From positions 62,001-126,000 of the forward strand of contig JAACJG010000010.1 in the NCBI GenBank assembly GCA_009917695.1: a DNA stretch of 64,000 bases, given 5' to 3'. Made by a program: the position numbers and the translations under genes. The stretch's first letter is position 1. Each line of letters opens with the position of its first letter. This document shows, in pieces, positions 36,166 through 36,615 of the stretch. Below the pieces are notes generated by a model, which saw only the letters and a program-made list of their open reading frames with translations, ran no database searches and was not told where the DNA came from. This stretch comes from Candidatus Rifleibacterium amylolyticum. Lineage in GTDB: Bacteria; Muiribacteriota; Ozemobacteria; Ozemobacterales; Ozemobacteraceae.

Positions 36166-36615
36166 TTAGACAGCTCTTTTGATGGGAACGGGTTTCCGGA
36201 GGGGCTGTTGTGGCGCCTTACTATCAGCTCCCGCCCGGTTATTGAACAGATGGTTTTCGAGCAGACGGCGGTTGAATCTGACCTGACCGTCGATGATGAA
36301 GTGCGGCAGAAGGTGCAGCATATTGCTGACGTTGTGATAGCTGACCTTCAGCCACTGCGCGACTTCTTCGATGGTCATAATCGTATCCTGCCCGGCAGTC
36401 TGGCTTTGCCGCGAAACAGCTTTCAATGCCTCACTTACCGCGCGGTGACCACCGTCAGGAACCGCCATATCGAGTTCGACGAGTTCGTTGCACAGTCTGG
36501 CGAAAGCGGTCTGGCAGTCGGGACAGGTGGCAAGATGCGCTTTTGCTTCGGCGCAGTCGCTTTCGGCGTAATACAGCTCGATGAGCTGTTCTTCGTTAAG
36601 GCATCTGCCGTTCAT
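36166..36615 (-). CDS. Zinc-finger anti-sigma factor-like protein with C-terminal excisionase/MerR-type HTH
   Basis: 'CLNEEQLIELYYAESDCAEAKAHLATCPDCQTAFARL' (HX3CX2C) and 'TIEEVAQWLKVSYHNVSNMLHLLPHFIIDGQVRFNRRLLENHLF'; ATGA overlap with sigma gene. Confidence 0.8.
   Translation of the reverse strand: MNGRCLNEEQLIELYYAESDCAEAKAHLATCPDCQTAFARLCNELVELDMAVPDGGHRAVSEALKAVSRQSQTAGQDTIMTIEEVAQWLKVSYHNVSNMLHLLPHFIIDGQVRFNRRLLENHLFNNRAGADSKAPQQPLRKPVPIKRAV

Follow-up and report, generated by a model that had tools for sequence, protein, structure and literature searches.

The 64,000-nt stretch of the Candidatus Rifleibacterium amylolyticum genome analyzed here (contig JAACJG010000010.1, positions 62,001 to 126,000; hereafter, the window) encodes a protein that combines an anti-sigma domain of the zinc-binding anti-sigma (ZAS) type with a winged helix-turn-helix (HTH) domain. 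The start of the gene for this ZAS-HTH protein overlaps the stop of an upstream gene for an extracytoplasmic function (ECF) sigma factor by 4 nt, and a gene for an ATPase related to GspE and PilB begins 13 nt downstream of it. The features of the locus are compiled in Table 1.

Table 1. Features of the ECF, ZAS-HTH, and ATPase locus, in window coordinates
Feature	Position	Strand	Basis
ZAS-HTH protein, 149 aa: soluble anti-sigma domain and winged HTH	36166..36615	(-)	ATG start; profiles, homologues, neighborhoods
Class I anti-sigma domain, residues 1-71; helices 8-15, 22-30, 32-50, 56-69	36403..36615	(-)	AlphaFold; RsiW profile and structure match
Hx3Cx2C zinc signature, H27-C31-C34	36514..36537	(-)	Present in 14/18 family members
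HTH_17/excisionase-like winged HTH, residues 77-130, without BldC base-contact equivalents and wing lysine	36226..36387	(-)	Profiles, structure, alignment
C-terminal tail PVPIKRAV	36169..36192	(-)	Family comparison of 18 members
ECF sigma factor gene, Sigma70_r2 and r4_2	36612..37145	(-)	Profile matches, tree
T2SSF N-domain (residues 10-96) fused to GspE/PilB-like ATPase (121-498), 510 aa	34620..36152	(-)
Promoter-like element ATCAATCCTTTT-N11-GCATATT	37158..37187	(-)	12 nt before ECF ATG; conserved among relatives

Distribution of the three-gene cassette

A profile search across 39 genomes of the phylum, in which neighborhoods were annotated in six frames, yielded 18 full-length ZAS-HTH copies in 17 genomes belonging to six of the eight families, with one genome (G038) carrying two copies of the cassette. 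Conservation of the complete domain arrangement across these 17 genomes speaks against a chance fusion. In every copy, ZAS-HTH was accompanied by genes for an ECF and a GspE/PilB-like ATPase, in the order ECF, ZAS-HTH, ATPase in 17 and in the order ATPase, ECF, ZAS-HTH in one (L114). Sixteen of the 18 operon ECFs grouped together (support 88/80), with L030 and L114 placed without resolution, and the operon ATPases formed one clade (support 97/98) against 29 other T2SSE proteins from five genomes of the phylum, in trees that cover few genomes and contain some long-branch rows. Within the phylum, neither the HTH-only matches nor the ECF/anti-sigma paralogues that were inspected had the ATPase as a neighbor. 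The three genes form one old, vertically inherited cassette.

Outside the phylum, a scan of contigs for short patterns and a survey of four other phyla, represented by 3 to 40 genomes each, returned half matches or nothing, and the cassette is likely restricted to its phylum. Because most of the genomes come from draft metagenome assemblies, absences are weak evidence. One locus of the same genus (L036; G003:C203) encodes a paralogous ECF and a zinc anti-sigma factor with a hydrophobic segment resembling a transmembrane (TM) segment; the gene for a 691-aa protein and two prepilin-like genes come next, so that a further ECF pair lies close to genes of pilus type.

Structural features of the ZAS-HTH protein

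Taken alone, the window protein was suggestive only, because both of its Pfam matches, zf-HC2 (E 0.005) and HTH_17 (E 0.0012), were below the gathering scores. Among 13 homologues, zf-HC2 was matched in 6 (best 5e-9) and HTH_17 in all 13 (best 4e-9), and the NCBIfam anti-sigma families and excise family were matched in 7 and 10, respectively. The ZAS-HTH family profile found RsiW (5wuq) with an E of 3e-4 over positions 8-71, and comparison of RsiW with the AlphaFold model of a Wallbacteria homologue aligned 70 of 70 residues (Z 7.0, rmsd 4.3). The N-terminal domain of this model also matched RslA (Z 5.2), and ChrR was among the structural matches to the anti-sigma domain. Four anti-sigma helices and a β-α-α-β-β-α winged HTH were present both in the model of the window protein (pLDDT 70) and in that of the Wallbacteria homologue (pLDDT 80, cores above 90).

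The N-terminal domain thus showed the features of a class I anti-sigma factor, namely four helices, the Hx3Cx2C motif (HLATCPDC in the window protein), and adjacency to an ECF gene. The first-pass annotation, made from the window sequence alone, had recognized AHLATCPDC as a zinc finger of this type; the motif is present (H27-x3-C31-x2-C34), and homologue profiles, AlphaFold models, and PDB matches back the anti-sigma fold. Its statement that no TM segment is present also held: the maximum 19-residue Kyte-Doolittle mean was at most 1.3 in 17 homologues from other loci versus 2.15 in a membrane paralogue, in a comparison confined to homologues, among which the three close to the window protein (75-79% identical) scored 0.5-1.1. 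In the Hx3Cx2C motif, the four-helix fold, and a gene position immediately after an ECF gene, ZAS-HTH resembles the soluble factors ChrR, RsrA/RshA, and RslA and the membrane factor RsiW. Beyond this domain it carries a winged HTH and a conserved tail, whereas ChrR carries a cupin and the others carry nothing or a TM segment.

Unlike the zinc class I anti-sigma factors compared here, the family has lost the zinc motif in 4 of its 18 members. The Hx3Cx2C motif across helices 2 and 3 is optional in class I anti-sigma factors, being present in about 56% of the class (PMC7406223), and the ZAS-HTH family can do without it. In two copies, L112 and L113 of lineage f3, the anti-sigma domain is shortened and devoid of zinc ligands, and the HTH, tail, and ATPase are retained. 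Loss of the motif in some copies shows that the N-terminal domain is under a different constraint there, and an HTH beside a sigma-binding-type domain could recruit; on this basis, ZAS-HTH might, instead of inhibiting the sigma factor, serve it as a co-activator or adaptor and tether the holoenzyme to its promoter. We know of no class I domain that activates its sigma factor, however, and consider such a role highly improbable.

The C-terminal half was assigned by the first-pass annotation to an HTH_17/excisionase-type domain, and the profile matches in all 13 homologues, the winged HTH fold, and the structure matches to excisionases and BldC agree with this assignment; the contrary outcome that it had named, a C-terminal half matching no HTH profile, did not occur. 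The HTH of the homologue model matched the RdfS, Xis, GIsul2, and Pukovnik excisionases and BldC with Z scores of about 6-6.5, those for RdfS, GIsul2, Pukovnik, and BldC being 6.1-6.5, and MerR proteins were also matched. Matches to the terminase small subunit and to MarR/Rex (Z 4-8) were set aside as reflecting a common winged-helix arrangement. ZAS-HTH shares with the HTH_17/excisionase/BldC proteins the β-α-α-β-β-α winged HTH and the pattern IMTxEExAxxLK...P...G..RF.R, and differs from them in its fusion to an anti-sigma domain, the loss of base-contact residues and a wing lysine, and a shorter loop.

These differences emerged from a comparison of the 18 fused HTHs with 27 stand-alone HTH_17 proteins, which were collected by a pattern for the first HTH helix or by the family profile, so that the compared positions played no part in selection. 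In BldC, Lys26 and Arg30 contact bases, and the R30A substitution abolishes binding (PMC5859096); we checked these residue numbers against the BldC sequence. The equivalent positions were Lys or Arg in 6% and 11% of the fused HTHs, respectively, versus 48% and 48% of the stand-alone relatives, and are occupied by H94 and N98 in the window protein. Acidic or amide residues occupied the BldC T27 equivalent in the fused HTHs, the wing lysine (position 107) was found in 0 of 18 fused versus 27 of 27 stand-alone HTHs, and the loop preceding the wing was 2 aa shorter in the fused HTHs. The HTH_17/excisionase-type fold was found without these basic DNA-contact residues of the recognition helix and wing, and with wing R113 kept. 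These losses weaken the case for DNA binding, which nevertheless may occur. In the reading that we favor, the domain descends from excisionase/MerR-type DNA-binding domains and, along with the C-terminal tail, was probably re-used mainly for protein docking or self-association.

The protein ends in a further conserved feature. After a variable linker, 16 of the 18 family proteins end in [RKQ]x[AVLI][IV] (for example, WRNVI, KRRVI, RNVI, RRQGLI, and KRAV), or 5 of 7 when counted by lineage. The pattern occurred at 0.6% of internal positions of the family proteins and at the end of 13 of 157 neighborhood proteins, a set that includes the family's own members. This distribution hints at a signal for docking or degradation.

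The promoter-like element and the ATPase partner

The upstream regions of four same-genus genomes aligned only across the roughly 50 nt that precede the ECF start, and sequences farther upstream were unconserved. This interval contains the promoter-like element, which was exact in all four same-genus genomes holding the operon and in one genome of a second genus (L033), with near variants in two more. Such an element directly before its own gene is expected of an autoregulated ECF gene. The exact pattern occurred once in the 5.39-Mb genome, and when up to 3 mismatches were allowed, there were 16 element-like sites, whereas the reversed control gave 3. The sites inspected as other targets mostly lay inside open frames and none was convincing, and we therefore name no regulon. 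If transcription starts 6-8 nt past the -10-like block, the putative ECF mRNA would be nearly leaderless; the gap contains no clear Shine-Dalgarno sequence.

The element also bears on the proposal of the first-pass annotation that the protein is a soluble bifunctional regulator able to sequester the ECF factor and bind DNA. In the form considered here, the protein would bind the operon promoter through its HTH, either repressing locally or acting as a corepressor once sigma-bound. The fold shared with DNA-binding excisionases, BldC, and MerR proteins, the invariant wing R113 and mostly basic position 116, and the conserved element with its adjacent A/T tract are consistent with such a role. 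Between genera, however, only the -35-like and -10-like blocks were conserved and no further operator, and the protein has lost the BldC K26/R30 equivalents and the wing lysine, and acidic or amide residues stand where BldC has T27. Solubility, an anti-sigma-type domain beside an ECF gene, and a MerR/excisionase-type HTH were borne out and DNA binding was not; we regard the bifunctional form as unlikely, albeit deserving attention. The conserved tail and the ATPase gene, which accompanies all 18 copies, had no place in the first-pass annotation.

The window ATPase matched T2SSE with an E of 6e-61. The operon ATPases share with GspE and PilB a T2SSE domain that contains a tetracysteine motif and Walker A, the latter being intact in every one read. 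They differ from GspE and PilB in forming a separate clade, in the fusion of a T2SSF (GspF/PilC cytoplasmic) domain to T2SSE in 14 of 18, and in the degradation, in several lineages, of three motifs: the Asp box, the His box, and Walker B. Members of the window genus have EI-GR, IEDFGEEE, and QMGARNT in place of the Asp box, the Walker B Glu, and the His box, respectively. The window ATPase keeps Walker A and the tetracysteine motif but lacks the full set of intact T2SSE motifs; all three of the replaced motifs are retained by canonical PilB/GspE proteins encoded in the same genomes. In the Walker B region, the two ATPases of lineage f5 (L027 and L029) have an insertion of 5 residues, GPFAG. 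A second divergent T2SSE (G000:C3), with an ECF about 6 kb away, was examined and is not a copy of the cassette.

The ATPase might be nothing but the regulated output, a variant GspE/PilB that modifies one pilus or secretion machine and has no part in signaling. Its place as the last gene in 17 of 18 operons, its intact motifs in lineages f3 and f6, and the genome's T2SSE matches, about 25 in number, which represent possible target machines, are compatible with this role. The window genus and others, however, have lost the catalytic motifs, the ATPase clade is co-inherited with the sigma/anti-sigma pair, and no pilin or other machine gene was conserved beside the ATPase in the neighborhoods of the family copies. 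We consider a pure output role improbable, albeit likewise deserving attention.

Upstream of the operon, the window contains an open reading frame (37808-38821) with a 21-bp tandem repeat of 2.8 copies at 38572-38630 (repeated IAEKDSA) and a gene run on the (-) strand (38934-44060) encoding TrkH, two TrkA-type proteins, a response regulator with tetratricopeptide repeats, and a HAMP/PAS histidine kinase.

Proposed mechanism and its implications

In the reading that we favor, with roughly even confidence, ZAS-HTH is a soluble class I anti-sigma factor of the upstream ECF, its HTH and tail serve mainly as a docking module, and the ATPase is the best candidate for the input partner that would bind the anti-sigma protein and release the sigma factor, but could instead be the controlled output. 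The N-terminal domain would hold the ECF off RNA polymerase until a signal releases it, and the freed ECF would then transcribe its own three-gene operon, probably from the promoter-like element. Release could occur when the ATPase-like protein docks on the HTH and tail; docking at this site is favored because the HTH and tail are kept where the zinc motif is lost. The architecture, fold, gene order, and co-inheritance, the losses of HTH contacts and ATPase motifs, the conserved element, and the tail are computed results, and sigma sequestration, autoregulation, the docking role, and the direction of signaling are our inferences.

Several observations weigh against this reading. The zinc ligands are missing in four of the 18 copies, all from lineage f3 and two of them with a shortened anti-sigma domain, and sigma binding would be less sure in these four. 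The wing R113, which aligns with BldC Arg48, is invariant in the family and position 116 is mostly basic, making DNA binding by the HTH possible. Moreover, the intact ATPase motifs of lineages f3 and f6 would better fit a working motor than a pure sensor.

Soluble ZAS anti-sigma factors are described as answering cytoplasmic signals, normally oxidative stress (PMC8999054). ECF11, ECF12, ECF14, ECF270, and ECF271 likewise have a soluble ZAS-type partner, and the same review names neither an ATPase nor an HTH partner for these groups (PMC8999054). In the open-access literature, we found neither a fusion of an anti-sigma domain with an HTH nor an ECF operon with a GspE-like ATPase. The family offers concrete residues to probe, namely R113, the loss of the lysine at position 107, the KRAV tail, and C31 and C34, in addition to the partner proteins. 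With its winged HTH without contact residues and its degraded ATPase of GspE type, this phylum-wide ECF cassette points to a route of input not yet described, and suggests that a relative of pilus motors was drafted into gene regulation.
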